Part shown: positions 2,705 to 33,425 of the stretch, piece by piece
Layout of the letters: the number at the start of each line of letters is the position of its first letter
Position numbering within the stretch: the first letter of the stretch is position 1
Source: Verrucomicrobiota bacterium JB024
GTDB lineage: Bacteria > Verrucomicrobiota > Verrucomicrobiia > Opitutales > Cerasicoccaceae
Assembly: GCA_030673825.1 (NCBI GenBank)
Contig: JAUTCS010000035.1
Location: 1-59,109 of the forward strand
Reading direction: 5' to 3'
Length of the DNA: 59,109 bases
Translations under genes and position numbers: made by a program
Notes under the pieces: generated by a model
The model's input: the letters and a program-made list of their open reading frames with translations, nothing else
What the model was told of the DNA's origin: nothing
The model's database searches: none

Positions 2705-2841
2705 CACCGTACTTTAGAGGGGTAATGGTAAAAGTAAAAGCGATTCGGTCCCCCATGATCGAGACCCGACCCCAGGTTTGCGAAAACACGGCCACCCGCA
2801 GTGCCCAAAGCCGGAATACCGCCCCGAACCATTATACCCAG

Positions 2842-2878: not shown

Positions 2879-2883
2879 GAAAT

Positions 2884-2930: not shown

Positions 2931-3087
2931 GCGAGGCCCATTTTGCACAATCCCTTTATAGCCAACAACCAGCAAGCTTTCTCGCCCCCGAAAAACGCCT
3001 TAGTGGGGCCAAAAGTGGGGCTTTGCCACCGGGAGGCGTTTCAAGCCGCTCAAATACGTTCCAAATTGCTGCAAAATCAGCTCCCCT

Positions 3088-4422: not shown

Positions 4423-4667
4423 ATAAACGAATCGCTATATTAAATCATAGACCAGTCACATAAACCCACCATAAATAGTATCCTACAATATCATTTCAAG
4501 CAGTTCAGCAAGTCTAGAGTCAGCGCCAAAAGCCAATTCCCAAGGCCCCCCCTTGAGGCCTTGACTAATCAGGCTTCGGCCACTAAGTTATTTATCCTCA
4601 ATCAGCCAACTGAAGTTGTTTTTCAGTCCGCTGAAATCGCCTGAAATCCTGCTGAGATAGCGTCCTT

Positions 4668-16511: not shown

Positions 16512-16946
16512 TTACTTAGCTTTGACGTAAATGACACGTTCCTCCTGGACGACGCCGTTGATCTCCTGGGCGGGGAGAACGACAGGCACAAAGGTGCCCG
16601 ACTCCTCGGGCTCGCTGAACTCGTCTTCCTTCTGGCGGTTCTGAATAATCCAGTACTGCTGTTTGACGCTTTGGTTGAGGGCGGCTTCGTAGCCGTTTCG
16701 GTAGGCGATGCGCTCATTTTCCTCGGCCATCGCATTGGCCCCCAGCGCAGCAACGGCCCCCAGCGCGGCCCCGCCCGTCGTCCAGGCCGCATCGCCATCG
16801 GACGCCTGATTGGCGATGACCGCGCCCAAGGCGCTGCCGCCCACCACGGTGGCGCTCTTGCCCACCTCATTGCTGGCGCAGCCGGAGAACAAGCCCGCCA
16901 CCATGAGCAAGAGAATCGTTCGCACGTATGACTTGCGTTGAATCAT
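16512..16946 (-). CDS. Glycine-zipper lipoprotein of the transfer operon
   Basis: A 144-residue protein starting at the ATG at 16946, sharing ATGA with the virB4 stop. A lipobox 'MVAGLFSGC' ends the signal sequence. Two glycine-zipper segments follow ('VVGGSALGAVIANQ' and 'TTGGAALGAVAALGANAMA'), which usually insert in or pack against membranes. The C-terminal part is polar. The role is unknown; in place it matches small lipoproteins that accompany TrbE/TrbJ. The frame upstream of 16946 is a shadow of virB4. Confidence 0.62.
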   Translation of the reverse strand: MIQRKSYVRTILLLMVAGLFSGCASNEVGKSATVVGGSALGAVIANQASDGDAAWTTGGAALGAVAALGANAMAEENERIAYRNGYEAALNQSVKQQYWIIQNRQKEDEFSEPEESGTFVPVVLPAQEINGVVQEERVIYVKAK

Positions 16947-19585
16947 GAAACAGAACCCTCCGGTTGTGCCGCCGCTGTAGCGGCGGACTGGTAATACGTC
17001 TGCGCCTGAATGTTGAGCGCAGTCCCGCAGACAGGCGGGCGCGCTCCCGGCGCGTAATAGCAAATAGACGAAAACTTGTGCCCCTCGGCCTGCTGTTCGA
17101 CGAGCGGGTAATCCATGATCGCCTCCTGCACCGCTTGCGGCAGCCCCGTGTCGCGGGCAATCTCCTGAATGTCGGCCTTGTCCAGTTGGCGCATCAGCAA
17201 ATGCTGTTTGGAGTTGCCCATGACGACAGCGCGGATACGCGAGCTTTTGAAACGCTCGTACTGCTGAACGATGGAACAGGTCCAGCATGAGAATTTACGC
17301 AACTGCGCGTAGGCTTCTGAAACAATTTTCTCCCCGCCCGGCACGTCGAGGAAGCGAGAGACTTCTTCAAAGATCATGCGCTTGCGCAGTTTTCGCGGCA
17401 GCGAGATGATGTGCTGACGGGCGAAGGACGTGATGAGCAGTCCCGCCGCCGTGCGCAGTTCAACGGCCTCGTCGCCCAACTGGCCCAACTCGAAATGCGC
17501 GATTTGGCTGCGTAGGTTGATATTGGTCGTCCCGTCGAAAAGCTTCCCGTAGCTGCCGGTGCCCGTCCATGCGGCCATGAGCGTGGCCAGTTCATCCATC
17601 TCGGCCTTGGGGTGATACGAACTGCGCCCAAAGCGCATCATCTCGATTAACTGCGAATGGACCGGGTAGTCCTCCGGCTTGAAATACGCGAAAGCGGTAT
17701 CTTTCACGTAGTCACAGGTGTCGGCGCGCTTGGCGAACTGCACAATCCGCTCGGAGGGGATAGCGTCGTAGAATGCCAACGCCTCGTCATCTTCGACGGC
17801 AAGCAGGTCGCGGAAAAGACTGAACGCCTCCACAAAACTGGTTTTCGTTTTGATCTTCTGCTGTTTCCACAGGTAGGTGGCACAAGCCATCTTGCGGACC
17901 TCGGGCATTTGCTCACGGTAACGCTTGCTCCACGACTCGAATTGGTCCCGGTAAAGCAAATCGATGTAGTGGCCGATCTGTGCCTGCCGGACCTGCTGGC
18001 GCTCCTGCGAATCGGACACGCCGATCATGCGCGAAACCAACGCCACCCCGGAGGACACCTGCTGGCGGGTCAGCGGCATCCCCACGGTGTCAAGGTAGTT
18101 GATGACCAGGTCGCTGTCCGGCTCGATGATGATGGGCGTCCCGCCCAGCGATGTCGTGAAATTCTGATACGACAGCCCTTCTTCGATGATGACCGTATAC
18201 GCGAAGCGGTGCGCGGTCTGCGTGAGTAAGTCTTCCATGAAGACCGACTTGCCCGCCCCGCTGATCCCGAACAGCACCGTATGCTGGGGCGTACCGCCGA
18301 TGAAGGTATTGATCCCGACTATATTATGCTGGTTGCCGTCATAGATGGCTTCGGCCTCTTCGAGATAACCGGTAAACGTAGCCGAAAACGGCAACAGATC
18401 GGCAAGATAACCGTCCTCAGCGTATTCGTCGCGGTGGGTATAGCTGGAGCCCGTCCAGCCCGGCCATGAGGCGAAGAACAGCTTCCGGCTGGAGGCGAAC
18501 AAGGTGTTCTGGTAAATCTCCGCGCCATTCATCTGACTGACCGCCTGCTTCAACTCGGCGGTCTTAGCCCGGAGCGTGTCGAGGTCACGCGCCCACGTGC
18601 GGATGATGTAGGTCACGGCAAAGGGCTTGGTGTAGCCCTGTGCCAAGGCGTCGATGGTCGTCTCCTTTTTCGCTATGGCGGTGGCATCCGACTGCCGTCC
18701 CTTGTGGCGGTGCTCGTTCTTCAAACGGTCGGCCTCCTTCTCCTCCTTGCGGATGACCTGCTTCACGTTGAGCGGCTTCAGATTGACCGTTACTTGGTAG
18801 TCGAGCGACGAGAGGCTGGTCAGGTGATGGATGATGCCGGGATAGGTTTCGCTGGGCCAGCGCTGCACGGTGAAGACCGAATGGTAGTACCCGTCGAATT
18901 CCAGCGCCGCCTTGTCGGCGGGCCGAATGTCGCAGTGCAGACAGTTCTCCTGAATCGTGTAACGCTCGTCAAAGGTGCGGGCGTAGTCATAGTCGATGCT
19001 CTCGGCCAACGACGGATTGAGGAAGCGCTTGCAGGTGGCGTAGTGGGCCACATCGTCCATCGGTGTGACGGTCGTATCTGAGCCGAGTACGCTTTGGATG
19101 TGGTGCTCGCGCTCCTGAAAATGAACTCTCAGGCTATCGAGCTGGGCCTCGTAGAAGGTCCGCAAACCGGACTTCGTCTTCAGATTACCCGAATACTTTT
19201 CCATCCGCGTACACAGGAACACAATCAGGTACTCGCGCCGGAGCTTGCGCTCCAGCATCCTCTGCCAGTAGCGGGAGAAACGCTCATTGCGAACCGCCTT
19301 CACGTAATCATCCTGACAGTGTTGCTGGGTGTCCCGATAGTAGCGCGTCAGTGCCGTGCGGTAGTCGTTGCCACAGGTCCACTGCACCTGCATGGACTCG
19401 GTGGGACCTAGGGAACTGAGCAACTGGCGAATCTTGCGCTTGTATTCGTTGCGAACGCCTACACTGGCTCCGCGCAAATCCGGGGTCTCCACGGTGAAGC
19501 CTTTCGCGACGTGGCAACCGCTCTCCAGCGAGCCGAAGATCATCATGCCGTCCGCGAACCAACCGTTGGGTGCTCCGCTACTCAT
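16943..19585 (-). CDS. virB4: VirB4/TrbE-type conjugation ATPase
   Basis: An 880-residue ATPase, the most conserved motor of type IV secretion. Walker A is at about 440-447 ('GISGAGKS'), followed downstream by a Walker B-type region around 'RKRMIFEEVSRFLDV'. The N-terminal domain, about 1-430, holds the CagE/TrbE/VirB-like region. Late motifs such as 'SCWTCSIVQQYERFKSSRIR' fit the VirB4 C-terminal half. It energises pilus assembly and DNA transfer at the inner membrane. It overlaps virB3 by eight bases and the lipoprotein gene by four, so the operon is compact. Confidence 0.9.
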   Translation of the reverse strand: MSSGAPNGWFADGMMIFGSLESGCHVAKGFTVETPDLRGASVGVRNEYKRKIRQLLSSLGPTESMQVQWTCGNDYRTALTRYYRDTQQHCQDDYVKAVRNERFSRYWQRMLERKLRREYLIVFLCTRMEKYSGNLKTKSGLRTFYEAQLDSLRVHFQEREHHIQSVLGSDTTVTPMDDVAHYATCKRFLNPSLAESIDYDYARTFDERYTIQENCLHCDIRPADKAALEFDGYYHSVFTVQRWPSETYPGIIHHLTSLSSLDYQVTVNLKPLNVKQVIRKEEKEADRLKNEHRHKGRQSDATAIAKKETTIDALAQGYTKPFAVTYIIRTWARDLDTLRAKTAELKQAVSQMNGAEIYQNTLFASSRKLFFASWPGWTGSSYTHRDEYAEDGYLADLLPFSATFTGYLEEAEAIYDGNQHNIVGINTFIGGTPQHTVLFGISGAGKSVFMEDLLTQTAHRFAYTVIIEEGLSYQNFTTSLGGTPIIIEPDSDLVINYLDTVGMPLTRQQVSSGVALVSRMIGVSDSQERQQVRQAQIGHYIDLLYRDQFESWSKRYREQMPEVRKMACATYLWKQQKIKTKTSFVEAFSLFRDLLAVEDDEALAFYDAIPSERIVQFAKRADTCDYVKDTAFAYFKPEDYPVHSQLIEMMRFGRSSYHPKAEMDELATLMAAWTGTGSYGKLFDGTTNINLRSQIAHFELGQLGDEAVELRTAAGLLITSFARQHIISLPRKLRKRMIFEEVSRFLDVPGGEKIVSEAYAQLRKFSCWTCSIVQQYERFKSSRIRAVVMGNSKQHLLMRQLDKADIQEIARDTGLPQAVQEAIMDYPLVEQQAEGHKFSSICYYAPGARPPVCGTALNIQAQTYYQSAATAAAQPEGSVS

Positions 19586-19922
19586 GGTCTTCCTCCCTGC
19601 GATGGCGCGGGTTAATGGGCTGGACGACCCTGACGAAGGAAAAGCCCGCCGAGGTTACATTGCTGAACCAGTCCCGGTCATAGCCACGGGGCTTGTTGTG
19701 CCGCAAGAGCAAGACATACAAAGTCGGCAAGATCAGGACCGGCAGACCAGCCCCGAGCGAGATAAGCAGGGGCAGGCCGATCACCATGAAACAGAGCATG
19801 ACGGTGGCCAGCGCGGCTACCACACCGATCACCGGATAGAGGAAAAGATTGCCTGAGAGTCCAAAGGCCTGGCCCTTGGCGTCGGTCGCCGCATGAGTGC
19901 GGGTACGCTCCAGCTGTTCCAT
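19578..19922 (-). CDS. virB3: VirB3/TrbD-type transfer protein
   Basis: A 114-residue small inner-membrane protein with two adjacent hydrophobic helices about residues 30-75 ('VIGVVAALATVMLCFMVIGL' and 'AGLPVLILPTLYVLLL'). The soluble tail is basic ('RPRHRREEDH'-like composition). VirB3 partners VirB4 in pilus assembly, and the gene indeed overlaps virB4 and follows the pilin gene. Family sequence is poorly conserved, so the call relies on length, topology and place. Confidence 0.7.
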   Translation of the reverse strand: MEQLERTRTHAATDAKGQAFGLSGNLFLYPVIGVVAALATVMLCFMVIGLPLLISLGAGLPVLILPTLYVLLLRHNKPRGYDRDWFSNVTSAGFSFVRVVQPINPRHRREEDHE

Positions 19923-19967
19923 TTAAAGATGGACGTTGAGATGAACGGATTGAGGGCAAATTGCCCT

Positions 19968-20240
19968 TTAGAATGAAGGCTCGATCGCAGCATCCCCCAG
20001 TCCTGCTATGACGAAAAATGAGGACATGATGAGACCGGCGGCTGCTATAATTATCCCTCCAAAGATTGAGGAATATCCCTCGGAATCTCCATCGGCTATT
20101 TTACGGGCTCCTCGCCAGATGAGGAAAATCCCGTAAACAAAGCCGAAGAAGAAAACGACACCCAAAGCCACTGCGAACATATCCTTCAGGTCCGTCAGTG
20201 TCGATTGGGCCAAGGCGGGAGGCACAATAAGGCTATTCAT
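19968..20240 (-). CDS. virB2: VirB2/TrbC-type pilin
   Basis: A 90-residue protein with a short N-terminal segment ending in a possible signal-peptidase site ('VPPALAQS'). Two hydrophobic helices follow: about 22-42 ('FAVALGVVFFFGFVYGIFLI') and about 60-82 ('IFGGIIIAAAGLIMSSFFVI'). They are joined by a short polar cytoplasmic loop 'RGARKIADGDSEG'. That is the architecture of VirB2 pilin subunits. It is the first gene of the minus-strand operon, with about 195 bases separating it from the divergent AAA+ gene; the operon promoter should lie there. Confidence 0.72.
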   Translation of the reverse strand: MNSLIVPPALAQSTLTDLKDMFAVALGVVFFFGFVYGIFLIWRGARKIADGDSEGYSSIFGGIIIAAAGLIMSSFFVIAGLGDAAIEPSF

Positions 20241-20435
20241 TTTGCCCTTTCAGTAGAGATTATCGTTTGTTTTTGGATGGCTAAAAAAACGCAGAATAAA
20301 ACGAAACATCATCCGCGTTTGACGGCTATAACTAAACCACCTATTACCAACCAACGTCAACGCAGTATATCCGCACACGCTTCCATTTACTTTTTATTTA
20401 AAAAATAACCAACAATAACCCTAATTACAAACGTC

Positions 20436-21383
20436 ATGCCTAGTAATAATATCGAACAAATAGCCTACTTAAATGAGCATCTAACCTCACATATAATCGG
20501 ACAGAATCGAGCCATCGAAAAAGCCTGTTCCGTCCTGCAAAGAGGAGCCTTAAAATTATCCCATCCAGACCGTCCTTTAGGCTCGTTTTTGTTCGTCGGA
20601 CCGACCGGCGTCGGCAAGACCGAACTGACCAAGTGCTTCACAAAATATTTGTTCCCCGGAGAGCACCGTTTAATCCGTTTCGACATGTCCGAATACCAGA
20701 ACAAAGAGCAACTCGAAGTGCTCCTGGGAGACGGCGCCAACGCCCAAGGCCAGATGGGTAGATTGTTCGACTTGAACAGGGATGAACAGGGAAATCTTCA
20801 GGGCGGAACGATTCTTTTTGACGAGATCGAGAAAGCCCATCCCGATCTGCTCTTGATCCTGCTTCAGGTTCTGGAAGACGGGCGACTCACCCTGCGTGAC
20901 GGGACCATCTTAAATTTGAGGAATTTCTTCGTCGTACTGACCTCAAACATCGGCGCTTCCGAGGCCATGGAGATGAGAAAATCCACCCCTGAAACCATTG
21001 AGCGCGTCGTCTTCGCGCTGGTCCGCGAAAAGCTGCGCCCCGAACTCGTCGGACGCATTACCGAAATAGTTATGTTCGAGCGCTTGGAGTATGACGTTCA
21101 GGTCAAAATCGCCCGCCTCATGTTAGAGCGAGAAGTCGATAGGCTTAGCAAGCAACTAAAAATGACAATTACCTTCGACGATGAACTACTGGAGCAAGTT
21201 TTAATTGACGGTTTTGATGCAAGATTTGGAGCCCGTCCATTACGGCGGAATATTGAGCGCTTAGTTGAATGCGCTATAACCAAAACAGTATTAAACCTTC
21301 ACACAGCAGGAACACAAACTCAGAACATACATATAAAAAACAATATAACTCCAACGCTAACACCAAAACCCTTCACTCTTTAG
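20436..21383 (+). CDS. Stand-alone ClpB/ClpA-type AAA+ ATPase
   Basis: A 315-residue single-domain AAA+ protein. Walker A is at 55-62 ('GPTGVGKT'), Walker B about 126-130 ('ILFDE'), then sensor 1 'VVLTSNIG', an arginine finger region 'LRPELVGRITE' and sensor 2 'FGARPLRR'. It matches the second AAA module of ClpB/ClpA plus the small C-terminal domain, but lacks the N domain, first AAA ring and middle coil. It is divergent from the conjugation operon and converges on the catabolic cluster, overlapping its first gene by 27 bases. It may remodel transfer proteins; this is inferred from position only. Confidence 0.8.
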   Translation: MPSNNIEQIAYLNEHLTSHIIGQNRAIEKACSVLQRGALKLSHPDRPLGSFLFVGPTGVGKTELTKCFTKYLFPGEHRLIRFDMSEYQNKEQLEVLLGDGANAQGQMGRLFDLNRDEQGNLQGGTILFDEIEKAHPDLLLILLQVLEDGRLTLRDGTILNLRNFFVVLTSNIGASEAMEMRKSTPETIERVVFALVREKLRPELVGRITEIVMFERLEYDVQVKIARLMLEREVDRLSKQLKMTITFDDELLEQVLIDGFDARFGARPLRRNIERLVECAITKTVLNLHTAGTQTQNIHIKNNITPTLTPKPFTL

Positions 21384-23642
21384 ATCACAACGTAGAGACT
21401 CATAGTCGAATGCCGACAATCCCTGTATGGGCATCCTTGTTCTTCCACAATCAACACCCAATATTTTCATCAATGCTTTACCTGCATTGAGCCCTCCATA
21501 CCTGAGGATTATGTTAATATACCGTGTGGCCTGTCCCTGAGATTGCCGGGCTTCCTCCATGTTCTCCTTTTGATAGGCCTCCAGTATTTTCCAATAAATA
21601 TCCGTACGGTAATTGTAAGTGCTTCCGACTGCGCCGCTCGCGCCTGCCTCGATTCCATCCAGCAGCATTTCATCACGACCAAAATACATTTTGATCCCAG
21701 CCGGAGACGACATTACACAGCTACGAAAGTCATCAATGTCTTCATGGGTGAACTTGATACCCGCGAATGTGGGCATGGACTCTATCAACAACGGTAGCAG
21801 GTCTGAAGCTCGGAACGGCACCTGCGTTACTGAAGGGATATGATAGTAGTAAAACGGCAGTGAGGAGGATTGCGCAACCTCCCGCAAAACTGAGACGCAC
21901 GAGGAAAGGCTCATTGCCGCGAGGCCGATGGGGACAACCGAGGCGACCCCCTTCGCGCCAACTTTTTCCGCATGAGCGGCCAGCAGGCAGGCAGCTTCTA
22001 CTGTCGAGTACCCAACATGCACGAGCACATCGATCCCCACAGAGGGGGCCTCTTTGCACCAAGCCTCCGCCAGAGCCTTTCGCTCATCAACGGATAAAGA
22101 ACCACCTTCGCCCGTCGTACCGCAGATAAATACTCCAGACACGCCAAGTTGCGATAGCCTACTTGCCTGTTCGCGCACCATTTTCAGGTTAAGGTTTCCA
22201 CCTGCATCAAAGGGCGTAAACGGGGCTGCGATGAATTTGAAGCCACCTTCACCCCCTTGGGCGCCGGCATGCGCTTTATTGCGACGTTGCAAGGTAAAAC
22301 TCCGATCAACCTCTGCCCCCTGATCCTGCAGAAGTGCACGTAACTGAGAGCCATCAAGTTCGGTCGCTCTGATGCGCCTTTGCGCGCACAGAGCCGCCGC
22401 CGTTCCTGCTGCCTGTCCCATCGCCATACACTGCGCCTGAACTCGGGCAGAGGCAAACGCCTCCCGTGTGGCGGAAAACGCGCCCCCGGCGACAATGACC
22501 CCCTCACTCCCGCAGGGAACCAGACAGCGGTAGGGGATCCCATACGGCCCCTGCAGAAAGGTCGCTTCCGTATTCGCGGACACAGCCCGATGCACATCAA
22601 TGGGATGGGCCCCGAGCGCGATCACATCCGGATGGTCTGGCGGCGAGACGACATCCTCAACACCCAGAGTGTACAGCCCCTCGATTGACCGCGTCTCACG
22701 AATCCCCGTCTGTGCCGCCGTATGCAGCAGATAGCAGTCGCGAAAGGCCCGATGGCGTCCACGAAAACACTCTACGATGGTGTGGACATCTTCCCGCATC
22801 GTTATCTCAGCCTCTGTGATGTCTTCCACCCGGACGGCATTTCCGGCATAACGGGTCGCGTTAACGCTCAGTTGGCCAGGACGGAGCACACTTCCATGCA
22901 CAGCCCACGGGCCTCCAAAGTTTTTCAGCCGCCCGGCCTCCACTTCTTCCTTCAGATAATCCGCCAGTTCGAAGTTCCGGTACTTCACCCCGTCTTCCGC
23001 CATAAGCGTAGCCAGCGCCTCCGTATCCACTCCCCCCAGGACAAACTGGAGGCTCATCGGCTGCATCTCGCCATTCTCACCATGACGATAACGCCAGGGC
23101 AGGCCAACCATGGCAGTCACTGCCCCTGTGCCCGTCGCATCGACAACCATGCGAGCCTTGACGCGCAGTTCTGCTCCATCTACCGACACATGCACATACT
23201 GGCATCCTGGTTGGCTCACATTCTCGGCCACCTCCACCCCGCACGCGCGAGAGATCCCTGTCACTTTCGCATGGAGCATGACAGCCACACCGGCCTCGCG
23301 CACCATCCGCATGGAAACGAGTTTGTACAACTCCGCCTCGAACGGCACATTCCCAGACGGCAAGTCAATACGCGCCCCGCCCAGCTTCGCCAAACGCTGG
23401 ATAAACTCCTCCGGAATGCCACGGACGACCCTCTTTCCGTTCGAGTTGAATTTGCTGATCGGACCGACCAGGGCTGCTGTCGCCATCCCGCCCAAAAAAC
23501 CATAGTTCTCGATCAACAACGTACGGGCACCGTTTCTGGCTGACGCGATGGCTGCAATGAAACCGGCTGGACCCCCACCACATACAACGACATCCATAAC
23601 GGAGGATGACACGGATGATAATAACAGTTCGTCTATATTCAT
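21357..23642 (-). CDS. Fusion of FAD-dependent oxidoreductase and N-acetylneuraminate-lyase-type aldolase
   Basis: A 761-residue two-domain protein from the ATG at 23642; an upstream TTG at 23714 is less likely. Residues 1 to about 460 are a FAD_oxidored-type dehydrogenase with dinucleotide motif 'DVVVCGGGPAGFIAA' (about 17-31) and 'VVDATGTGAVTAM'. Residues about 465-761 are a complete DapA/NanA-family TIM barrel. It shows 'IAAPFTPFDAGG', 'FICGTTGEGGSLS', 'YYYHIPSVTQV', a Schiff-base lysine at about 630 in 'IKFTHED', and 'GASGAVGSTYNY', the NanA-like set. No stop or frameshift separates the parts. It probably oxidises a substrate and cleaves the 2-keto-3-deoxy acid to pyruvate plus an aldehyde. 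Confidence 0.85.
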   Translation of the reverse strand: MNIDELLLSSVSSSVMDVVVCGGGPAGFIAAIASARNGARTLLIENYGFLGGMATAALVGPISKFNSNGKRVVRGIPEEFIQRLAKLGGARIDLPSGNVPFEAELYKLVSMRMVREAGVAVMLHAKVTGISRACGVEVAENVSQPGCQYVHVSVDGAELRVKARMVVDATGTGAVTAMVGLPWRYRHGENGEMQPMSLQFVLGGVDTEALATLMAEDGVKYRNFELADYLKEEVEAGRLKNFGGPWAVHGSVLRPGQLSVNATRYAGNAVRVEDITEAEITMREDVHTIVECFRGRHRAFRDCYLLHTAAQTGIRETRSIEGLYTLGVEDVVSPPDHPDVIALGAHPIDVHRAVSANTEATFLQGPYGIPYRCLVPCGSEGVIVAGGAFSATREAFASARVQAQCMAMGQAAGTAAALCAQRRIRATELDGSQLRALLQDQGAEVDRSFTLQRRNKAHAGAQGGEGGFKFIAAPFTPFDAGGNLNLKMVREQASRLSQLGVSGVFICGTTGEGGSLSVDERKALAEAWCKEAPSVGIDVLVHVGYSTVEAACLLAAHAEKVGAKGVASVVPIGLAAMSLSSCVSVLREVAQSSSLPFYYYHIPSVTQVPFRASDLLPLLIESMPTFAGIKFTHEDIDDFRSCVMSSPAGIKMYFGRDEMLLDGIEAGASGAVGSTYNYRTDIYWKILEAYQKENMEEARQSQGQATRYINIILRYGGLNAGKALMKILGVDCGRTRMPIQGLSAFDYESLRCDLKSEGFWC

Positions 23643-23879
23643 GGTCGTACGATCGGTGGCCTGGTTTTGCAAAGGTGTCGGAAATGAATCAACTCCATGC
23701 ACACCACGACTCAATCCTATGTCAACTATCCCATTTCTTCCGAAAATCTAAATCTCGGAATACCGCACGCTTCCGACATAAAACATGACATTTCCGACAT
23801 TCTGTTTTCTTAAACAGACTGACGCGACTTGCCAACCCCACAAATCCGCTCATATTCGATTCGTTGCAATCGATCTCGG

Positions 23880-24896
23880 ATGCCCTCTCCAACGCCCCAA
23901 TACTCAAGATTTCGCACCATGGCCACCGTGCGCGCATTGCGACGCATGATCTCGGAGACGCCACCATGCCACGCTTTTCGTCAGTTGCTGCAGTCAGTGA
24001 TCGACGAATGTGTACTGTCCAGGATTTCTGTCCATGAGGACAGTTTCTCCGCCTCTGACCCCTCACCGCGCGAAACATCGTTGGGCGGAGCAAGTCTATC
24101 GGGCCCTCTTCCCCATCCCCGTTTGATCTTACCATTGAGCGGCGAACTACGCGTCATCCGCAATCGGGCAAAGCCTTCGCTGGACGATGTCATGCGAGTC
24201 GCGCACCTGCGTTGGATTCCGGCCAATGGCTGGTTCTTCATCAGAAATCGCACCGCTCGCCTCGTCCTTTCAATTATCTATCACTCGGATTGCACCAGGT
24301 ACGTTTGGTTTAACCGGGAGCCCACCCCTGGTGCACCCATTGGAGCCGAGACCTCCCTCACCCTGCTTCAGTACCGGACGCCAGCGGCCCCGAGCGCGAC
24401 AATGCATCAAGCGCTCCGCATGACAAATGCGGCCCTTAGCTCGAAAGACCCCGTTGACCAGAGACTCGCTCTCGCCAGCATGAATAACTTGTTGGCATGG
24501 TCATTATATGAACTCGACCAGCAACCACCGCCCGTTTCTACCAGTGGCAGTCAGCAGTTGTTTGACGATATCCTGGCTTTTATCTTAGAACATCTCGACG
24601 ATCATCTGGACCGCGACAAGATAGCAGCATCGTTTAGCATAAGCTCTGATCATCTGACGCGCCTTTTCCGCGAACACGGATCATGCGGATTCACAGAATT
24701 CGTAAGAGCAGAAAGGCTCGACCGGGCACGAACACTTCTGGCCAGCAGCAGCCTGTCGGTCAAAGAGATTTCGTACGCATGCGGATTCGGTGGCGTCGAT
24801 TACTTTATTAAATGCTTCCGGGAGAAAAACGGACTCCCACCTCTGCATTGGAGAAGGCAACGAGCTGCCGGCAGAGATAATCCCCAGGACTGTTAA
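23880..24896 (+). CDS. AraC-family transcription regulator
   Basis: A 338-residue regulator, from the first ATG at 23880; ATG 23919 is an alternative. The C terminus has the two helix-turn-helix motifs of AraC: 'DRDKIAASFSISSDHLTRLF' and 'SLSVKEISYACGFGGVDYFI', followed by 'KCFREKNGLPPLHWRR'. The N-terminal part, about 70-200, is likely a cupin-like ligand-binding domain with 'LPHPRLILPLSGELRVIRN'. It is divergent from the FAD/aldolase fusion gene (about 240 bases between starts) and probably controls it in response to a sugar or sugar acid. Confidence 0.8.
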   Translation: MPSPTPQYSRFRTMATVRALRRMISETPPCHAFRQLLQSVIDECVLSRISVHEDSFSASDPSPRETSLGGASLSGPLPHPRLILPLSGELRVIRNRAKPSLDDVMRVAHLRWIPANGWFFIRNRTARLVLSIIYHSDCTRYVWFNREPTPGAPIGAETSLTLLQYRTPAAPSATMHQALRMTNAALSSKDPVDQRLALASMNNLLAWSLYELDQQPPPVSTSGSQQLFDDILAFILEHLDDHLDRDKIAASFSISSDHLTRLFREHGSCGFTEFVRAERLDRARTLLASSSLSVKEISYACGFGGVDYFIKCFREKNGLPPLHWRRQRAAGRDNPQDC

Positions 24897-25018: not shown

Positions 25019-25774
25019 ATGTCCCCATCCACCCCAACCGTTGCGCATCCTCCACGCGCTTCATCCCACTGGCGATCAGGTTTCTCGCTGACTGAGCTCT
25101 TGGTAGTTCTTTCCATCATCGGCGTACTTTCAGCAATCATAATTGTCGCAGTAGGCTCGATCAAAGAGCAAGCCTGGGCCACCAAATCGATTGGGAATAA
25201 ACGAACGATTTACACCGCGCTAAGCATGTATCATGCGGACCACGGAAACCTGCCTCCGCTGATCAGCGCAGATTCCGAGACTCAGCAAAGCTGGAATACC
25301 AACACCGCCTGGCATACGATTATCGCCCCCTATCTCGAACACAATGAAATCGTCAACGGGAGAAGGACCGAAGCATCGGAGGTTTTCTATGATCCAGCCC
25401 AGGCTGTTCACTCTGTGCGAGGAGACTATGGCATCGGGTACAGCCAACAGTATGGGCCGATCAAGAAGTGGTTGACCGACAGCCAGGGGGTCAGTAACCC
25501 CGCTTCCCGCTCGCTTTCGTTCGCCGAGATCAACAACCCTGGAAGAACCCCTCTGCTGGCGGACTGCGAGGCCCAGAACAGCGCGGGAGAGGTTGTGGGC
25601 AGCTGGTATTTTATCATGACCAGGACCAGCCTCCCGCCTCTGTCCGGCTCTCCGCGGCTCTCCTTCCGACACAATGATCGGGTGCAGTTCCTCTTCGCCG
25701 ACGGAAGCAGCGGCTCCTATACACTGGACGAGGTCTACGGAGAGGATGGCATACTCCCTTGGTCAAACGAATAA
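25019..25774 (+). CDS. Prepilin-like protein with H-X9-DG domain
   Basis: A 251-residue protein with an N-terminal prepilin methylation motif, 'GFSLTELLVVLSIIGVLSAI', about residues 21-40, preceded by a 20-residue polar leader. The C terminus shows the H-X9-DG-like 'RHNDRVQFLFADGSSGSYTL', typical of a very abundant Planctomycetota/Verrucomicrobiota pseudopilin family (often called DUF1559-like). Such proteins are exported and inserted in type II or IV pilus-like machines. In these phyla they frequently sit in polysaccharide-use clusters, as here between an AraC regulator and sialidase-like genes. Confidence 0.75.
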   Translation: MSPSTPTVAHPPRASSHWRSGFSLTELLVVLSIIGVLSAIIIVAVGSIKEQAWATKSIGNKRTIYTALSMYHADHGNLPPLISADSETQQSWNTNTAWHTIIAPYLEHNEIVNGRRTEASEVFYDPAQAVHSVRGDYGIGYSQQYGPIKKWLTDSQGVSNPASRSLSFAEINNPGRTPLLADCEAQNSAGEVVGSWYFIMTRTSLPPLSGSPRLSFRHNDRVQFLFADGSSGSYTLDEVYGEDGILPWSNE

Positions 25775-25910: not shown

Positions 25911-27569
25911 TCACTCACGAGGCAGATCGGCCTCGTCCAATGTGTAAGCCCACACAGCCGGCCGTGGTAACGGCTTGGGCCCGGCATTGTAATCGACCAC
26001 GACGACCGTTCCATCCCCTAACTGAGTCCACCCGCTATAACCGTTGTGCGCATGACAGTAGGTCGCATTGTAGTCCAGACAAAGGACGGATCGCCGGCGG
26101 AAGGGATCCGGGAAGCCTTGCGAAGCACACCACTTCCAGTCGATGGCATGATCAGAAATGTTCCGGACCTGCACCCGGAAAGAACGCCACTGACTGACCC
26201 CGGCGTTCCGTTCGAAAACGACCGAACGCTCATCGATGCCGCGCATTTCGCTTTTGCGATTGCCGAAGCCAACCTCCCGGCGCCAGAGGTTTCCAAGCTC
26301 AGATTCGAGCAGCAAGCTGCCGTCAGCCCAAATCGAAACCTTGCCTCCGACACGCTCGATCCGCAGGCGCCGCCACCCACGCAGGTCCAACGAGGCGAAA
26401 ATCTCGGGGCGGTCGGCCAGGCAAACCCGGTCGGGCAACAGCCGCACCCAGCATCCGGCAGAGATGTTGCAGGCGTGAATGTCCGCCGACCTGACCCGCA
26501 CCTCACACTCGACCGATACCGCGGTCTGGGCGTCTTCTGCCGGATAGAGCGCGTAGGCCACGGCCGAGGGGTTGCCTTCGCCCGTCGTCAATTCATAGCA
26601 ACCCTCAAGCAGACGGGCACATTGCTCATCCCCGATGAAACAGCCGGGTTCGTAATCCGGCAGACAGTCGGGATCAAAGCTGGACGCGTAGGTCGCGATC
26701 GTGCCCCAGAAATTACGGTGCGTGACCAAGAGCCGCCCCGAGGCCAGGCGCCCCGGAATGGGACGATGCCCGTAGATCGGCAGCAAACGCGGGGCTCCCC
26801 AGGTGCGTCCATAATCATGACTGATGAGCAGGCGGCTGGGCTGCCCGAGATACCCGGCCATGTCACCGCAGCGGGCGATCCCCCAAACGGTACCACCGCC
26901 CATATCGACAAGGCCCACCTCACAGTCCGAGTAGAGCTGATCATCATTCAGAATATGCTCGCTCCAGGTTTTCCCACCGTCGCTGGAGATGACGGCATCA
27001 CAGCGGTAATAGGCATATGAGGGAAGACTCGCCGCGTACTCGTAAGGCATGCGTCGGTCGTCGCGGCGAGGCAGCGCGGTCGTGCGGGTGTAGATGAGAT
27101 CGCCGTTGCTGAGCGAGGAAATACGCTCCGGCTCGCCCCCGACCCGGTCCACCTGCTGAGGCGCGCTCCAGGTGAGGCCGCCATCTTCGCTCCAGAAGAC
27201 GTAGTTGGCCATCCCTCTGTCCGGCTGTTGCCAATCGTACAACGAGACGTGTTCTTCGTGTGCTTGCCGGTTACCCAGATCGCAGATCACCGCCAAACGG
27301 CCATCAGCCAAAGTGTTGATCTCCGGGGACACCCAGACGCTCCCCTCGCGATGAATATCCCGGTGGCTGATGCTTTGCGGAGTCCCCCAAGTCCGGGCGC
27401 CATCGCGACTTCTCGCGATCATAATATCCGTCGTCGTCCGGCAATGCTGATCCGTGCGCAGGAAACAAGCGATTAGGTCGCCCCCATGTTGAGCAACGCT
27501 GCAAAAACCGAGGTAATTGTCCGCCTCCATGGCGACAAGGTGGCGACATTCAGGGCGAATGGTGTGCAT
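25911..27569 (-). CDS. BNR-repeat sialidase-superfamily protein with inserted beta-sandwich
   Basis: A 552-residue protein with several Asp-box/BNR motifs: 'ARSRDGARTWGTPQ', 'SEDGGLTWSAP', 'SSDGGKTWSEH' and 'SHDYGRTWGAP'. These mark the six-bladed propeller of sialidases and related enzymes. Between about 340 and 480 an inserted region reads like a concanavalin-type sandwich ('RRLRIERVGGKVSIWADGSL'). No signal peptide is visible, so the enzyme should be cytoplasmic. It may release or hydrolyse a sialic-acid-like residue, or act on another glycoside; the catalytic Arg triad and Tyr/Glu pair were not confirmed. Confidence 0.68.
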   Translation of the reverse strand: MHTIRPECRHLVAMEADNYLGFCSVAQHGGDLIACFLRTDQHCRTTTDIMIARSRDGARTWGTPQSISHRDIHREGSVWVSPEINTLADGRLAVICDLGNRQAHEEHVSLYDWQQPDRGMANYVFWSEDGGLTWSAPQQVDRVGGEPERISSLSNGDLIYTRTTALPRRDDRRMPYEYAASLPSYAYYRCDAVISSDGGKTWSEHILNDDQLYSDCEVGLVDMGGGTVWGIARCGDMAGYLGQPSRLLISHDYGRTWGAPRLLPIYGHRPIPGRLASGRLLVTHRNFWGTIATYASSFDPDCLPDYEPGCFIGDEQCARLLEGCYELTTGEGNPSAVAYALYPAEDAQTAVSVECEVRVRSADIHACNISAGCWVRLLPDRVCLADRPEIFASLDLRGWRRLRIERVGGKVSIWADGSLLLESELGNLWRREVGFGNRKSEMRGIDERSVVFERNAGVSQWRSFRVQVRNISDHAIDWKWCASQGFPDPFRRRSVLCLDYNATYCHAHNGYSGWTQLGDGTVVVVDYNAGPKPLPRPAVWAYTLDEADLPRE

Positions 27570-27662: not shown

Positions 27663-28943
27663 CTAGGGCTGGCTATCCACTAGATCGCTACGGACCGGCA
27701 GGCAATCCAGATCTTGGCGGGTCAGGCGGACATGGATGACCTGGCGCATCTGATGGTCGATAAACAGTTCGAGCTGGTCGCCATCGACCAGCAAGTCCGC
27801 ATACGAGACCATCGGAGTCACGCCTCCCCAGCCATTGAGCACGGCGGGCTCGCAGGCGTTAACCGCGACCAGCCTGGGCTCGCTCCACGTGCGACTGCCA
27901 TCTGTCGAAAGCGCACACCACAGCTCGACACGCGCCTCATGGGCAAAGATATGGGCTCCTCCATCCGCCGGGCGGCGCTTGTTGTGAAAAAAGGCCACGA
28001 GGGTTTTACCATCGGCTAACATGAAAAGCATGGGCGGCGCGTCAAGGTGGACCAGCGGCGTAGGCTCAAAGGCCGACCAGGTCAGCCCGTCGTCATCGCT
28101 ACGACTCTGCCACAGGCGTCCTTCCGGAGTCCGCGCCATGAGCAGGATTTGTCCGTCGGGAAGCAGGATGGGCCGGGCTTCGTCCATTCGGCAGGTACCG
28201 GGGCACTGCCAGCCGTTCGGCCGGGCCGCAGGCAGGACCGTCCAGGTCTCTCCTCGGTCGGCGCTGCGCAGCAGATACTGATGCGTCACGACATGCTCTC
28301 CGGCCTCGTCCGCGGTCCAGTGAGAAGCATGAGCGCCCACCAGCCAGGCACCACTTCGGGTTTCGCACATGCGCATAGCGGACATACCGCAAAAGTTCGG
28401 ATCGTTCTGCGGGCGGATGATCTGCGCCGGGCTCCAGGTCCGGCCGTCGTCGTCCGAGAACCGGTAACCGATGGGGGCATTTTCGGTGCCGTCATGAAAT
28501 TCCACGACAGGCTCCGTTCCGAAGGCGTAAATCCTGGAACTGCCTGTCGGGATGAAGGGCACCGACGCGTGCATACTGTAGGGAACCTCCCAAGCCACCG
28601 CTCCCGGCGTCCAGGAGCAACCGCCATCGCTGGAGCGGTACTGGTACATCCGGTTTGCCATCTTACCCCGTCCGGCCCAGACATAGTGCATGGGACCGGC
28701 CGGATGCATCAGCAGATAGTCGCCCCCCGGCGTGATGATGCTGCGCGGATGGCAGACAAAATCATCCAGGCAGACGCGACGGGCTGTGAGGTTTCCAGCC
28801 AGGATGACACCCAGCTCTTTTTCCAAACGAAGACCCTCCGGCAGAACAGCGGTCGAGAATTTCTCTCCGGCAATCTCCACCGTATCCAGACAGTGGATAC
28901 CGTGCGCGGAAGCCGGGCAGTAATTGGATGACAGATCGGACAT
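27663..28943 (-). CDS. BNR-repeat sialidase-superfamily protein
   Basis: A 426-residue protein from the ATG at 28943; the frame upstream to 29246 is a shadow of the dehydrogenase gene. Asp-box motifs are visible: 'RSSDGGCSWTPG', 'FSDDDGRTWSPAQ', 'RSADRGETWTVL', 'RSDDDGLTWSAF' and 'STDGSRTWSEP'. These give a likely six-bladed sialidase propeller, with early 'DDFVCHPRSIITPGGDYL'. No signal peptide is seen. It is one of two unequal sialidase-like genes in tandem, about 90 bases apart, and is followed upstream by the dehydrogenase. Substrate is unknown. Confidence 0.7.
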   Translation of the reverse strand: MSDLSSNYCPASAHGIHCLDTVEIAGEKFSTAVLPEGLRLEKELGVILAGNLTARRVCLDDFVCHPRSIITPGGDYLLMHPAGPMHYVWAGRGKMANRMYQYRSSDGGCSWTPGAVAWEVPYSMHASVPFIPTGSSRIYAFGTEPVVEFHDGTENAPIGYRFSDDDGRTWSPAQIIRPQNDPNFCGMSAMRMCETRSGAWLVGAHASHWTADEAGEHVVTHQYLLRSADRGETWTVLPAARPNGWQCPGTCRMDEARPILLPDGQILLMARTPEGRLWQSRSDDDGLTWSAFEPTPLVHLDAPPMLFMLADGKTLVAFFHNKRRPADGGAHIFAHEARVELWCALSTDGSRTWSEPRLVAVNACEPAVLNGWGGVTPMVSYADLLVDGDQLELFIDHQMRQVIHVRLTRQDLDCLPVRSDLVDSQP

Positions 28944-28980
28944 GGGTAAGTTTTTTGAGAGGTTGGAGATAGAAAAAGAT

Positions 28981-29958
28981 TCAGGCGTTAACAACATGCT
29001 GCGGGGTTCCGCCGAAGAAAGACTGAAGGTTATCGCGGGTGATCCCCAGCAGGCGCTGGCGGCTTTCCTCGCTGGCCCAGGCCAGGTGCGGCGTGATGTA
29101 GCAGTTTTCCAAAGCCAGCAGCGGATTGTCCGCGCACATAGGCTCAACTCCGACCACGTCCACCGCCGCCGCGGCAAGCGGCCCCTCCCGTAAGGCCGCC
29201 GCGAGGTCGTGCTCTTTAATGAGGCCGCCCCGGGCGGTATTGACAAGCATACTGCCGGGTCTCATTCGGCCCAGTAAAGCGGCGTTGACGAAACCGGTGT
29301 TGGCCGGTGTCTGCGGACAATGCAGTGAAACCAAATCCGCCGACTCAAAAACCTCCTCGACCGAGTTCGCCCACGCAAACTCCGGCCAATCAAACCCACC
29401 CCGCCGACTGGGGGTATAGGCCAGCAGGCGAACTCCAAATGGCCGGAGCCGTTCCGCCACCGCCCGTCCAATCTCGCCCAAGCCGACCAGGCCCACCGTC
29501 ATGCCCGCAAGTTCTCTGGGCGGACTCAGCCAGTAGGAGAAAACGGGCGAGCGGACCCACTCCCCCGCCCTGACGCCGACCGCATGGTCGCCGACCCGGT
29601 TGCACATTTCCAGGATGAGGGCGACGGCGTGCTGAGCCACGGAAGTGGTGCTGTAGCTGGGCACGTTGCACACGGTCACGCCCTGACGGCGGGCCGCCTG
29701 CACATCGATGATATTGTATCCAGTCGCCAATACAGAGATGAGTTTCAATTCGGGGAGCATGCGCAGGGTTTCCGCGTCGAGAGGCACCTTGTTGGTCAGG
29801 ACGACCTGAGCTTCCCGGCAACGCTCGACGATCTGCGCCCGGTCGTGTCCCGTCCGGTCATAGAGGGTGAGCTCCCCGTAAGGCTCCAATATCGACCAGG
29901 AGCTGCGGCCGGAGAAATGAAAAGTCTCTGCGTCGAGAATGGTAATGTTGGGTTTCAT
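28981..29958 (-). CDS. D-2-hydroxyacid dehydrogenase (glycerate/hydroxypyruvate reductase-like)
   Basis: A 325-residue NAD-dependent dehydrogenase from the ATG at 29958, which overlaps the symporter stop (TGATG). Rossmann motif 'VGLVGLGEIGRAVAERL', catalytic Arg in 'LVNTARGGLIKEHDLA', and catalytic His in 'ITPHLAWASEESR' are present. The family reduces 2-keto acids or oxidises 2-hydroxyacids such as glycerate or D-lactate. In a pathway with pyruvate-releasing aldolases it could handle the short hydroxy-acid or aldehyde-derived product. It is probably in one operon with the symporter and the sialidase-like genes. Confidence 0.85.
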   Translation of the reverse strand: MKPNITILDAETFHFSGRSSWSILEPYGELTLYDRTGHDRAQIVERCREAQVVLTNKVPLDAETLRMLPELKLISVLATGYNIIDVQAARRQGVTVCNVPSYSTTSVAQHAVALILEMCNRVGDHAVGVRAGEWVRSPVFSYWLSPPRELAGMTVGLVGLGEIGRAVAERLRPFGVRLLAYTPSRRGGFDWPEFAWANSVEEVFESADLVSLHCPQTPANTGFVNAALLGRMRPGSMLVNTARGGLIKEHDLAAALREGPLAAAAVDVVGVEPMCADNPLLALENCYITPHLAWASEESRQRLLGITRDNLQSFFGGTPQHVVNA

Positions 29959-31940
29959 CAATCGTTTTGCCGTGAAGGGTTGAGTGTTTCACCAGGAGCG
30001 TTTTCGTCGCGATTGATCCCCGCACTGACGGTGCCGTCATCGAGCGGGTTGCGCTTGGCGTGCCGGAGCACATCCATCAGCTCCCGCAGGTTGATCGCGC
30101 CACCGATCAGGAACCAGACCGTGACGATGACCGCCTTCACGAGCCCGATGCCGAGAAATATTTTCCAGTAACTGAACCACCAGTCGTCGCTCCAGCGCTC
30201 GTGTAGATTCAGGACGGTGATGATCACAAAGGCGCTGAACAGGCTCAACGACCACGCGATCGTCAGATAAAAGATGATCCGGTCGCGACGGTTGAAATCC
30301 CGGCCCGGCTTCAAGGCGTGCCACCCAAGACGCGGCTTGGGCTGGCCGTATTTCTCGGGATGGTCGGTCATCTCCGCGTACTCGCCCCGGTGCAGCATAC
30401 GGTCGAGGTTGAACTGACGCCGCTGGGCGAGCGAGACAATGATGTACAGGCTGAGGGAGGTGATCATCGCCGCGAACAGCATCTGCTGACCGTCAAAGGG
30501 AAAGGCCGGGTCAAACTGCTTGATGAGAATCCCGCCGCAGCCGATGACGCTTCCGGTGATCATGGCGACAAACGCCGCCGGAGTCGTCCCCCGCCGTGAG
30601 TACAGCCCGCCAATAATCGCCGCCCCGGCTCCGCCGAGAAAGATCGCTCCGGTCAGCGACATAAACAACAGGATATACTGTGTTTGACGGAAGAACAGGC
30701 TGAAGACAAAGGCAAAGATCGCCACCCCCAAGATAGACACCCTCAACCACAGCATGTGCTGTTTCGGGTTCAGCGGACGCCCGCGCCACGGCACGATCAC
30801 GTCCTGGATAAGAATGCTGCCCCAGGAGTGCATGTAGGTGTTATCCGTCGAGATGGCAGAAGCCAGCATGACCGTCGCGAACAAGCCGAGCATTCCCACC
30901 GGAAGCAGTTCGCGGATGACCAGCGGGGTCGTCAGTTGCTTTTGCAGTTGCGCGTCGCCGACCGCTCCGAGCGCCTCGTTCGCCGCCTGCGCCTGGGCCG
31001 AGAAGTCCGCGCTGTGCATGACCACCAGCGCGGCAATCGGCAGAAAAATCGGAAGCAGCGTCGTCACCGCCGTGCGCCACTGCGCCAGCACTTTCCCCAT
31101 CCGCGCCTCATGTGGCGAGCGCGCGGAGGAGTTGTACGCCTGCCCCCCCTGCCAGGCCATCGTCCAGTAGAACGCCCCGAAGAGATTCACCAGAAAATAG
31201 AACGCGTTAAAGTGCTTCACTTCTCCCGCATCGAAGGGATTGATCCGGGATTGGCCGCTTCCCCCCACCGACTGAAGGGCTTCCTTGACGGTGTCCATGT
31301 TGAAATGAAGCACCAGAAAGATGAGGACGGCAACCAGCACGACATTCACAAACTGCGCCTGCACAAAGTCTGTCACCATGATCACGATCTGTCCGCCCGT
31401 CAGGGTGAAAAACAACGCCGTGGACAACAGCAGAATCATGACCACCGGGTAGGTCTGCATCTCCAAAGAGCCAATCGTGAAGCTCTGCGGCAACCCACAG
31501 AAATACACAAAGAACCGCGCGGTAACAGCGGGGAAAATACCGTAGTTGATGATGCCTGAGAAAAACGCGAGCCCCCCGGCGAAGATGCGAAACTTACGCC
31601 CATAGCGCAGTTCGAAAAACTGCCCCAGCGTCATAGCCCGCGTCTGCCGGTAGCGATAGATCACCCACCCGCTCGTCGAGATGATGAGGGCCGCCGGCAG
31701 CAACATCAGTTGCCAGAAGGCCGGCACAAACCCGGCCAGGTAGTACATCTCGAAGTACGCAATCAGATTAATCGCGCCCAGTCCCGAGGCCCCCTCGGCC
31801 ATCGTCACCAGGTAGCGCCCCGCCGCACGATTCGCCGAAAGGAAATCAGCGACACTGCGCGTATAACGCTTGAAGAAGACGACGATTCCAAAAAGCAGGA
31901 GCGTAAATACAATCAGGATTATCCAGTCGAGTGGTGCCAT
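29958..31940 (-). CDS. Sodium:solute symporter (SSS family)
   Basis: A 660-residue transporter with about 13-14 membrane helices, from the ATG at 31940; a TTG at 32000 precedes it in frame. The SSS hallmark start, 'RYTRSVADFLSANRAAGRYL', and 'EGASGLGAINLIAYFEMYYL' are visible. Later segments include 'MLGLFATVMLASAISTDNTY', which carries the conserved small-residue sodium site region. Family members import sugars, sialic acid, pantothenate or inositol with sodium. Its place beside sialidase-like and aldolase genes suggests it imports the sugar acid that the cluster degrades. Confidence 0.85.
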   Translation of the reverse strand: MAPLDWIILIVFTLLLFGIVVFFKRYTRSVADFLSANRAAGRYLVTMAEGASGLGAINLIAYFEMYYLAGFVPAFWQLMLLPAALIISTSGWVIYRYRQTRAMTLGQFFELRYGRKFRIFAGGLAFFSGIINYGIFPAVTARFFVYFCGLPQSFTIGSLEMQTYPVVMILLLSTALFFTLTGGQIVIMVTDFVQAQFVNVVLVAVLIFLVLHFNMDTVKEALQSVGGSGQSRINPFDAGEVKHFNAFYFLVNLFGAFYWTMAWQGGQAYNSSARSPHEARMGKVLAQWRTAVTTLLPIFLPIAALVVMHSADFSAQAQAANEALGAVGDAQLQKQLTTPLVIRELLPVGMLGLFATVMLASAISTDNTYMHSWGSILIQDVIVPWRGRPLNPKQHMLWLRVSILGVAIFAFVFSLFFRQTQYILLFMSLTGAIFLGGAGAAIIGGLYSRRGTTPAAFVAMITGSVIGCGGILIKQFDPAFPFDGQQMLFAAMITSLSLYIIVSLAQRRQFNLDRMLHRGEYAEMTDHPEKYGQPKPRLGWHALKPGRDFNRRDRIIFYLTIAWSLSLFSAFVIITVLNLHERWSDDWWFSYWKIFLGIGLVKAVIVTVWFLIGGAINLRELMDVLRHAKRNPLDDGTVSAGINRDENAPGETLNPSRQND

Positions 31941-32033
31941 GGCAGGGGTATTAGAATCAGAACAACAAAATTCACGTGATATATCAATAGGAATCTGCAA
32001 AAAATCCTGCTATCCTATTTATGATCGAGCGCC

Positions 32034-33425
32034 TCAATGAGCGGCCCCGACGACCGCCTGAGCATCGACGATCGCGCCCGTCTCACGCAGACGGTCCCGT
32101 AGTTTCTCGCTATCGATCTGCGCGGCATTGCCACCCTTGTCGAGGGCCATGACGGCTGCCTGGCCCGCCGCCTCGCCCATCGCGTAGCAGGGAGCCATGA
32201 CCCGCAGCGGCCCCAGGAGCAAACGCTCAACACTTACCGCCCGCCCGGGGCAGAGGATGTTCCTCACCGGACGCGGAAGCATGATCCTGTAGGGGATGGC
32301 AATCACCTCCGGCGCTCGCACGCCCTGCTCATCCAGTGGCTGGTAGCTGGGCTTGCGAGGATCAGGCAGGTCGAAACCGTAGCCGCTAAAGCCGATCGTA
32401 TCGGAAAACTCGATACGTTTCATGACATCCTCCACCGTATAGAGAAAGTCGCCGCGAATACGCCGCGTCTCGCGAATACCCAACGACGGCGAGACCTCGA
32501 TGATACGACTGTCCGCGAACCCGGGGAAATGCTTACGCATAATCGAGAAGAGCTCGTGGACCTGGGAACGCCCTTCCATCATCCCACGCGAAATTGACCG
32601 GCCGTCGGTTCCGTCCACTCCGCATATACGCGTGGTGTTGATCATAAAGGTTCCCCTCTCCGGCGCCTGCTGGCTGATGAAGATATCAAAGGAAAACGGC
32701 CACTCCCCGGATTCGCGCAATCGCTGGATGATGTCCTTCAGCCGAATCGACTCATGAGCCCTCATATAGGATTCGAGCGCGTCCTGATCCACCCGGTCCA
32801 CACGGAACATCAGGGTAGCGGGCGTCATCAGCCCGTCCTCCTCCCTGCCTTTGGCAAATTCGCACCCGCTGCGGGCCGCAACATCGGCGTCCCCGGTCGC
32901 ATCGACGACGACCCCGGCCTCGACCGCCTGGAGCCCCGCCTTGTTAAAGAAAATCACCTGACGGACGCGTTCGCCCTCCACCACCGCGTCCACAAAGCTC
33001 GTGAAAAAGAGCACATCCACGCCAGCCTTGACCATCATCTCGTCCAACAGCGAGACCATCTCGCGGGGCTCAAAATAAAAGCCCACCGCCAAATCGCCCG
33101 GCGCCCATCCGAAAGGCTGATAATACTGGTTGGGGATAGACGCCGGGTCGATACCGGCCCCGCGGGCGATCAAGATCTCCGACATCTCACGAAAGATACC
33201 CCCGACGCAGGGATGCCCATCGTTACGTGTGCGACCGCCGAGCAGGCTTGTCACGCCGGCACTGGTTCCGACACCTCCCAATTGCCCGGTCCCTTCCAGC
33301 AAGAGCACACGCGCCCCAGAGCGCGCCGCCGCCAGAGCCGCCGGAATCCCCGAGGGGCCTCCACCGCACACCACCACATCGTACTGGCCCAGAACCGGGA
33401 TTCGCTCAAGCCTCTCAATATTCAT
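32034..33425 (-). CDS. FAD-dependent oxidoreductase (FAD_oxidored family)
   Basis: A 463-residue flavoprotein. Dinucleotide-binding motif 'YDVVVCGGGPSGIPAALAAA' starts about residue 14, followed by 'LEGTGQLGGVGTSAGVTSLL' and later 'GVVVDATGDADVAARSG', the family trio. It is a clear paralogue of the N-terminal domain of the 761-residue fusion protein (21357-23642), with the same 'CGGGP', 'GGxxT' and 'DATGxxxV' spacing. In these phyla such enzymes oxidise sugars or sugar acids within polysaccharide-use clusters. Its substrate and electron acceptor are unknown. It lies upstream of the symporter gene, on the same strand. Confidence 0.82.
   Translation of the reverse strand: MNIERLERIPVLGQYDVVVCGGGPSGIPAALAAARSGARVLLLEGTGQLGGVGTSAGVTSLLGGRTRNDGHPCVGGIFREMSEILIARGAGIDPASIPNQYYQPFGWAPGDLAVGFYFEPREMVSLLDEMMVKAGVDVLFFTSFVDAVVEGERVRQVIFFNKAGLQAVEAGVVVDATGDADVAARSGCEFAKGREEDGLMTPATLMFRVDRVDQDALESYMRAHESIRLKDIIQRLRESGEWPFSFDIFISQQAPERGTFMINTTRICGVDGTDGRSISRGMMEGRSQVHELFSIMRKHFPGFADSRIIEVSPSLGIRETRRIRGDFLYTVEDVMKRIEFSDTIGFSGYGFDLPDPRKPSYQPLDEQGVRAPEVIAIPYRIMLPRPVRNILCPGRAVSVERLLLGPLRVMAPCYAMGEAAGQAAVMALDKGGNAAQIDSEKLRDRLRETGAIVDAQAVVGAAH

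Follow-up and report, generated by a model that had tools for sequence, protein, structure and literature searches.

A 59,109-nucleotide stretch of DNA from Verrucomicrobiota bacterium JB024 (contig JAUTCS010000035.1; this whole stretch is called the window below) carries a gene in which a flavoprotein of the FAD_oxidored family and an aldolase resembling N-acetylneuraminate lyase (NAL) are encoded as one protein. The gene occupies 21357-23642 of the minus strand as one uninterrupted open reading frame (ORF) of 761 residues from the ATG at 23642. No stop lies in frame, including near 22240, where the initial annotation had raised the possibility of a missed stop and where the assembled sequence was checked. 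That annotation had described the same 761-residue frame without stating its strand; the same frame of the plus strand is full of stops. An upstream TTG provides an alternative start that would lengthen the product to 785 residues. We assign a probability of about 0.6 to a genuine fusion with a joined function, seen in one genome, and such a fusion would be rare and probably recent.

Two complete domains in one frame

Both halves match their Pfam profiles over essentially the full profile length and above the curated cut-offs, which bears out the earlier description of a complete FAD_oxidored domain and a complete NanA/DapA-type barrel in a single frame. Residues 17-438 (22329-23594, minus strand) match FAD_oxidored (PF12831; E-value 5.7e-101; 339.2 bits against a cut-off of 27) over profile positions 1-416 of 416, and residues 470-755 (21378-22235, minus strand) match the dihydrodipicolinate synthase (DHDPS)/NAL superfamily profile PF00701 (E-value 2.8e-40; 138.3 bits against a cut-off of 22.1) over positions 5-287 of 289. 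The linker between them, approximately residues 446-467 (22242-22307, minus strand), lies beyond the point at which close homologues of the flavoprotein usually end. The AlphaFold2 model of the full chain has a mean per-residue confidence (pLDDT) of 90, with both domains confident, residues 450-464 below 50 and a predicted template modelling score (pTM) of 0.67. We take it to show a flexible tether between two domains whose mutual orientation is undefined. Substrate channelling, which had been suggested for this protein, finds no support in a model with a disordered tether and no fixed domain arrangement.

By sequence, the best solved relative of the aldolase half is human N-acetylneuraminate lyase (6arh, E-value 8.1e-55). 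The same enzyme matches by fold with a Z score of 42.9 and a root-mean-square deviation of 1.5 over 295 residues at 37% identity, and the NALs of Proteus (6h4e; Z 41.7, 31% identity) and Aliivibrio (5afd; Z 40.3, 30% identity) match similarly. When the window sequence was aligned with 21 stand-alone homologues, the invariant or near-invariant positions included the GTTGE loop at 508-512 (in which one threonine is nearly invariant rather than invariant among the 22 sequences), Y600 within YYYHIP, K630, D657/E658 and S674. K630, whose codon is at 21753-21755 on the minus strand and which falls in the invariant alignment column K165, is presumably the Schiff-base lysine that the initial annotation had placed near residue 630, and we take the GxxGE loop and Y600 to be active-site elements. 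The aldolase half scores under the NCBIfam equivalog cut-offs for NAL (NF003164, 126.8 against 281 bits; TIGR00683, 102.8 against 382 bits), as do all four of the stand-alone aldolase relatives tested in the same way, and we therefore call it NAL-like.

The flavoprotein half carries GGGPAG at 22-27, GIRETR at 313-318 and a conserved C-terminal block. Among its PDB sequence matches listed (the best 60 of 132 in one search and of 310 in another), none is whole-length and nearly all fall in the N-terminal nucleotide-binding region. The best fold matches of its model are a chain of an electron-bifurcating Fix/EtfABCX complex (7koe_C) and a geranylgeranyl reductase-like protein (3oz2), with Z scores of 21.4 each and many near ties below. 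Since such fold matches are generic, no substrate follows from them; we rejected any assignment of substrate or function from fold, and the earlier proposal of a flavoprotein-catalysed oxidation of a sugar acid to the 2-keto-3-deoxy acid gained no support. Among the papers listed in a literature search on the FAD_oxidored family, none pointed to a member that acts on sugars and whose substrate had been tested. Matches to this family number 12-41 per genome across 18 genomes. Some stand-alone homologues of the flavoprotein half have a twin-arginine-like start (SRRDALKFLG in L083, SRRAFLSGCA in L085/L087), which suggests export of those homologues; no such start is evident in the fused protein.

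The junction and its possible origins

We searched for the fused protein in five overlapping sets of genomes that each include the JB024 genome itself (54 relatives, 10 genomes of the family, 372 of the order, 384 of the class and 387 of the phylum) and in a further 240 genomes from the class of genome G906, with the JB024 genome excluded. None of these searches returned a second genome with a match across both halves; for the order, class, phylum and G906-class sets the best 2-4 candidates per genome were scored under E-value limits of 1e-70 and 1e-85, so that a diverged fusion could be missed. A scan of genome contigs from 84,980 species with six peptide patterns found 15 loci, all of them flavoprotein only. 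None of 72,556 plasmid records had a single place covering 80% of the fused protein, no relative of the fused protein was found on viral contigs, and no report of a flavoprotein-NAL fusion was found among the literature titles and abstract openings listed. The initial annotation knew of no such fusion, and looking for the same domain order elsewhere brought none to light. A conserved bifunctional fusion enzyme should show this order in more than one species; within these searches, JB024 alone does.

Both halves have their nearest relatives in another genome of the same family (G005), where each is encoded by its own gene on a different contig. The stand-alone flavoprotein of G005 is identical to the fused one at 237 of 427 positions (56%), and its gene adjoins a homologue (47%) of BNR1, a sialidase-like gene of the window, and a gene of the sialic-acid-specific acetylesterase (SASA) family. 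The stand-alone aldolase of G005 is identical at 131 of 294 positions (45%), and its gene lies directly 3' of a sialidase gene, which we take to be GH33 and whose product has sialidase 1eur as its best solved match (1.3e-36). We built one tree from the window aldolase and 30 of the 32 NAL rows of loci L001-L081 and another from the window flavoprotein and 41 of the 49 other FAD_oxidored rows of the same loci, dropping distant, partial, duplicate and long multi-domain rows; L089 and L090 are in neither tree. In the NAL tree, the window and G005 aldolases group together with support of 99/99.

Loci L001-L081, mostly with flanks of 1.5 kb, contain no case of the two genes standing separate and adjacent as an operon. 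A FAD_oxidored gene is present in one of the 32 NAL loci (L045), on the opposite strand and closest to another paralogue (L015). Homologues that always exist as two separate adjacent genes had been named in advance as evidence that would tell against a fusion: all homologues found are indeed separate, but they are not adjacent, the two genes of G005 lying on different contigs.

The sequence at the junction allows more than one history. Close flavoprotein homologues terminate at Q-G-A followed by a single hydrophobic residue, or a few positions beyond it (the C-terminus is QGAVV in L072 and QGAYV in the more distant L031), which corresponds to approximately residue 445 here. At this usual end point the minus strand contains an out-of-frame TGA (22306-22308), whose first base is the third of codon 445, and after it a Shine-Dalgarno (SD)-like GGAG (22300-22303) located 7 nt ahead of an in-frame TTG at codon 451 (22290-22292), which could be a remnant or a live start of the aldolase. 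The fused frame is therefore one base from a two-gene operon. This pattern fits three readings, namely a true fusion through the loss of one base, the same event with a separate aldolase still made, and an assembly error.

An assembly error, by which two neighbouring genes, separate in the organism, were joined through a one-base mistake in the draft just before the out-of-frame TGA, is an alternative that we consider unlikely but take seriously. It would account for the TGA at the usual flavoprotein end and for the GGAG that precedes, by 7 nt, a TTG in the aldolase frame, and it would suit a fusion seen in one genome only, the source assembly being a draft of 163 contigs (95% complete). The product of 311 residues expected from the TTG at 22292 also agrees with the length of the stand-alone aldolase relatives, 24 of 32 of which have 302-321 residues. 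We looked for comparable patterns in 16 window genes, requiring that a stop in one of the other two frames lie within 4 codons and an SD-like motif with an in-frame start within 22 codons, and found them at 181 of 6509 codon positions (2.8%); however, the test was defined after the junction had been seen, and 2.8% is insufficiently rare to serve as proof of an error. A comparable SD motif precedes the assumed start of only 4 of the 16 genes, so the SD-like motif at the junction is weakly diagnostic. Also speaking against an error are the 761 open codons and the lack of any aldolase directly behind a stand-alone flavoprotein in the loci examined.

We regard it as improbable that the joint is a real, recent one-base mutation without functional gain, with the aldolase still produced from the internal start and the joined protein incidental. 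The SD-like motif and the TTG would permit this, and the disordered linker, with no fixed domain arrangement predicted, would agree with it, but conserved residues are retained in both domains. No close relative was found by which the fusion event could be dated. A chimeric contig made of unrelated DNA pieces joined in assembly can be dismissed as highly improbable: GC content at third codon positions does vary along the fusion gene (0.635 in the flavoprotein, 0.538 in the aldolase, and 0.44 and 0.33 in two blocks of the last 62 codons), but the drop is gradual within the aldolase and none occurs at the junction, the join is in frame at a domain boundary, and both halves have relatives in sialidase-containing clusters, all of which counts against a random joining.

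Gene neighbourhood and related loci

Divergent from the fusion gene, on the plus strand, lies a gene for an AraC-type regulator (23829-24896; PF12833, 4.6e-20), followed on the same strand by one for a prepilin-like/DUF1559 protein (25019-25774; PF07596, PF07963). The minus strand then carries BNR1 (25911-27569; PF13088, 3.2e-10); a second sialidase-like gene, BNR2 (27663-29246 from the first start as listed; PF13088, 4.7e-23; PDB sialidase match 3e-9); and genes for a D-2-hydroxyacid dehydrogenase (HADH; 28981-29961; PF02826, 7.4e-51), a sodium:solute symporter (29958-32000; PF00474, 3.7e-15), a second, unfused FAD_oxidored protein (32034-33425; PF12831, 1e-96), a GntR/FCD regulator (33500-34171; PF00392, PF07729) and an RraA-like aldolase (36088-36888; PF03737, 1.1e-22). 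As listed, BNR2 overlaps the next gene with its 5' end, so its true start is probably later. Genes for a GDSL lipase and a polysaccharide deacetylase are also present, and the setting resembles a cluster for sialic-acid-type utilisation. Sialidase-like genes and a symporter had been placed next to the fusion gene by the initial annotation; they are nearby, but not directly next to it, as the AraC and prepilin-like genes on the other strand intervene before BNR1.

A DUF6259 protein of 1067 residues (36951-40154) adjoins the RraA-like gene. On the other side of the fusion gene, 16943-21383 contains a gene for a TraG-like P-loop ATPase and a short ClpB-like AAA+ gene (315 residues), and the AAA+ frame is convergent with the fusion gene and overlaps its 3' end by 27 nt. 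Promoter and terminator sites predicted in 21250-24100 were no commoner than in shuffled sequence.

We examined the neighbourhoods of related aldolases at 21 NAL loci (L091-L111, up to approximately 8.5 kb on each side), two of which are elsewhere in the JB024 genome. These loci cover 22 of the 32 NAL rows and were chosen from the better-scoring ones, with that of G393 left out; 20 sulfatase loci served as the control. A homologue of the G005 sialidase is present at 10 of the 21 NAL loci and at none of the 20 control loci (p 0.0005). L091, from which the query came, is among the 10, and without it the count is 9 of 20. A prepilin-like homologue is present at 6/21 NAL loci and 0/20 controls (p 0.02). 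Differences were not significant for RraA-like homologues (4/21 against 0/20, p 0.11), HADH (4/21 against 2/20, p 0.66) or BNR2 (3/21 against 0/20, p 0.23). The link between aldolase and sialidase is thus supported, and the sialic-acid-like context at which the initial annotation had hinted gains weight from the sialidase counts.

At one of the NAL loci (L110; G417:C175), 1903-6012 is a 1370-residue ORF with two tandem FAD_oxidored domains, and RraA-like, HADH and NAL-like genes come after it. On G543:C5, two matches each fall in a frame of 1825 residues, apparently one and the same.

Proposed function and comparison with known systems

Together with the base pattern at the junction and the restriction to one genome, several findings weigh against a genuine fusion with a joined function in a sialic-acid-type pathway. 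FAD_oxidored genes lie near NAL genes at 8 of the 21 loci, where 1.64 loci were expected at genome-average density (p 6.5e-5), but they also lie near sulfatases at 3 of the 20 control loci (Fisher test, p 0.16). We withdrew a specific FAD_oxidored-NAL link after this control, and because the flavoproteins are not clearly commoner near NAL than near sulfatases, the two families are only weakly coupled in function. BNR1 is weakly sialidase-like, with a PDB sialidase match of 3.4e-4. Support for grouping the window and G005 flavoproteins is 94/45, so that their orthology is not firm. The window and G005 aldolases are on long branches (1.29 and 1.24), and the window has VPIGLAA where the consensus of the 22-sequence alignment is APxFFKP, and VTQV where it is MTGV; these branches and departures from consensus mean that the substrate of the aldolase may have shifted. 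Lastly, the JB024 genome has no match to PF07221 (N-acetylglucosamine (GlcNAc) 2-epimerase) or PF04131 (NanE).

Of 18 searched genomes that carry NAL genes, 8 likewise lack any PF07221 match. Unless the draft simply misses an epimerase, N-acetylmannosamine (ManNAc) would have to be processed in some other way, or the cleavage may yield no ManNAc. Cleavage of ketodeoxynonulosonic acid (KDN) yields mannose, and the substrate may be KDN-like, with no ManNAc released. The JB024 genome has at least three NAL-like genes (in the window and on C74 and C83).

If the fusion is genuine, the loss of the flavoprotein stop would have joined two enzymes that belong to a sialic-acid-type utilisation cluster, with the short gap ahead of the aldolase turned into a disordered tether. 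The symporter would import a nonulosonic acid, and the flavin domain may carry out a redox step whose substrate is this acid, a modified version of it or the product of its breakdown. The barrel would form a Schiff base through K630 and cleave a 2-keto-3-deoxy acid, releasing pyruvate and an aldose. NAL proteins are tetramers, and tethering would fix the ratio of the two enzymes and allow them a common assembly instead of channelling a substrate. The divergent AraC gene would be the candidate regulator of the fusion gene. A stand-alone aldolase may be made in addition, from the TTG at 22292.

A narrower proposal is that the protein is a bifunctional flavin-dependent sialate (or KDN-type) oxidoreductase-lyase, which would convert a modified, anhydro or uncleavable nonulosonic acid or handle the released aldose. 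The flavin domain would then feed or drain the attached lyase, in a genome in which no NanE or GlcNAc 2-epimerase was detected. We consider this proposal a long shot.

A real fusion would be informative because an aldolase of fairly predictable chemistry hints directly at the function of one FAD_oxidored protein, whose role could be tested with a single purified protein. If the joint is a sequencing error, this functional hint is lost and the cluster context stays.

Known systems resemble parts of the fused protein. The NanA proteins of Verrucomicrobia and Planctomycetes are described as forming a clade with those of Bacteroidetes, near eukaryotes (PMC2693436). That account of bacterial nan clusters describes no fusion in its main text, where the words fusion, fused and oxidoreductase never occur. 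A precedent is known for feeding sialic acid catabolism through an oxidoreductase: RgNanOx/YjhC converts 2,7-anhydro-Neu5Ac (Neu5Ac, N-acetylneuraminic acid) to Neu5Ac (PMC7535918, PMC7315737). By its description, that enzyme is set apart from the fusion as an NAD-dependent, Rossmann-fold dimer and a separate protein (PMC7535918); its family is absent among the listed Pfam, NCBIfam and fold matches of the flavoprotein half, with no direct comparison made. FAD_oxidored proteins (PF12831) are like the fused half in full-length match, dinucleotide motif and C-terminal block, but none of the homologues found runs on into an aldolase as the window protein does. Finally, the solved NAL/NanA enzymes (6arh, 6h4e and 5afd) are like the fused aldolase in fold, in GTTGE, in the YYYHIP tyrosine and in the lysine at K630, whereas they and the stand-alone relatives found are single barrels of approximately 300 residues, unlike the fused protein, in which the barrel follows a complete flavoprotein.

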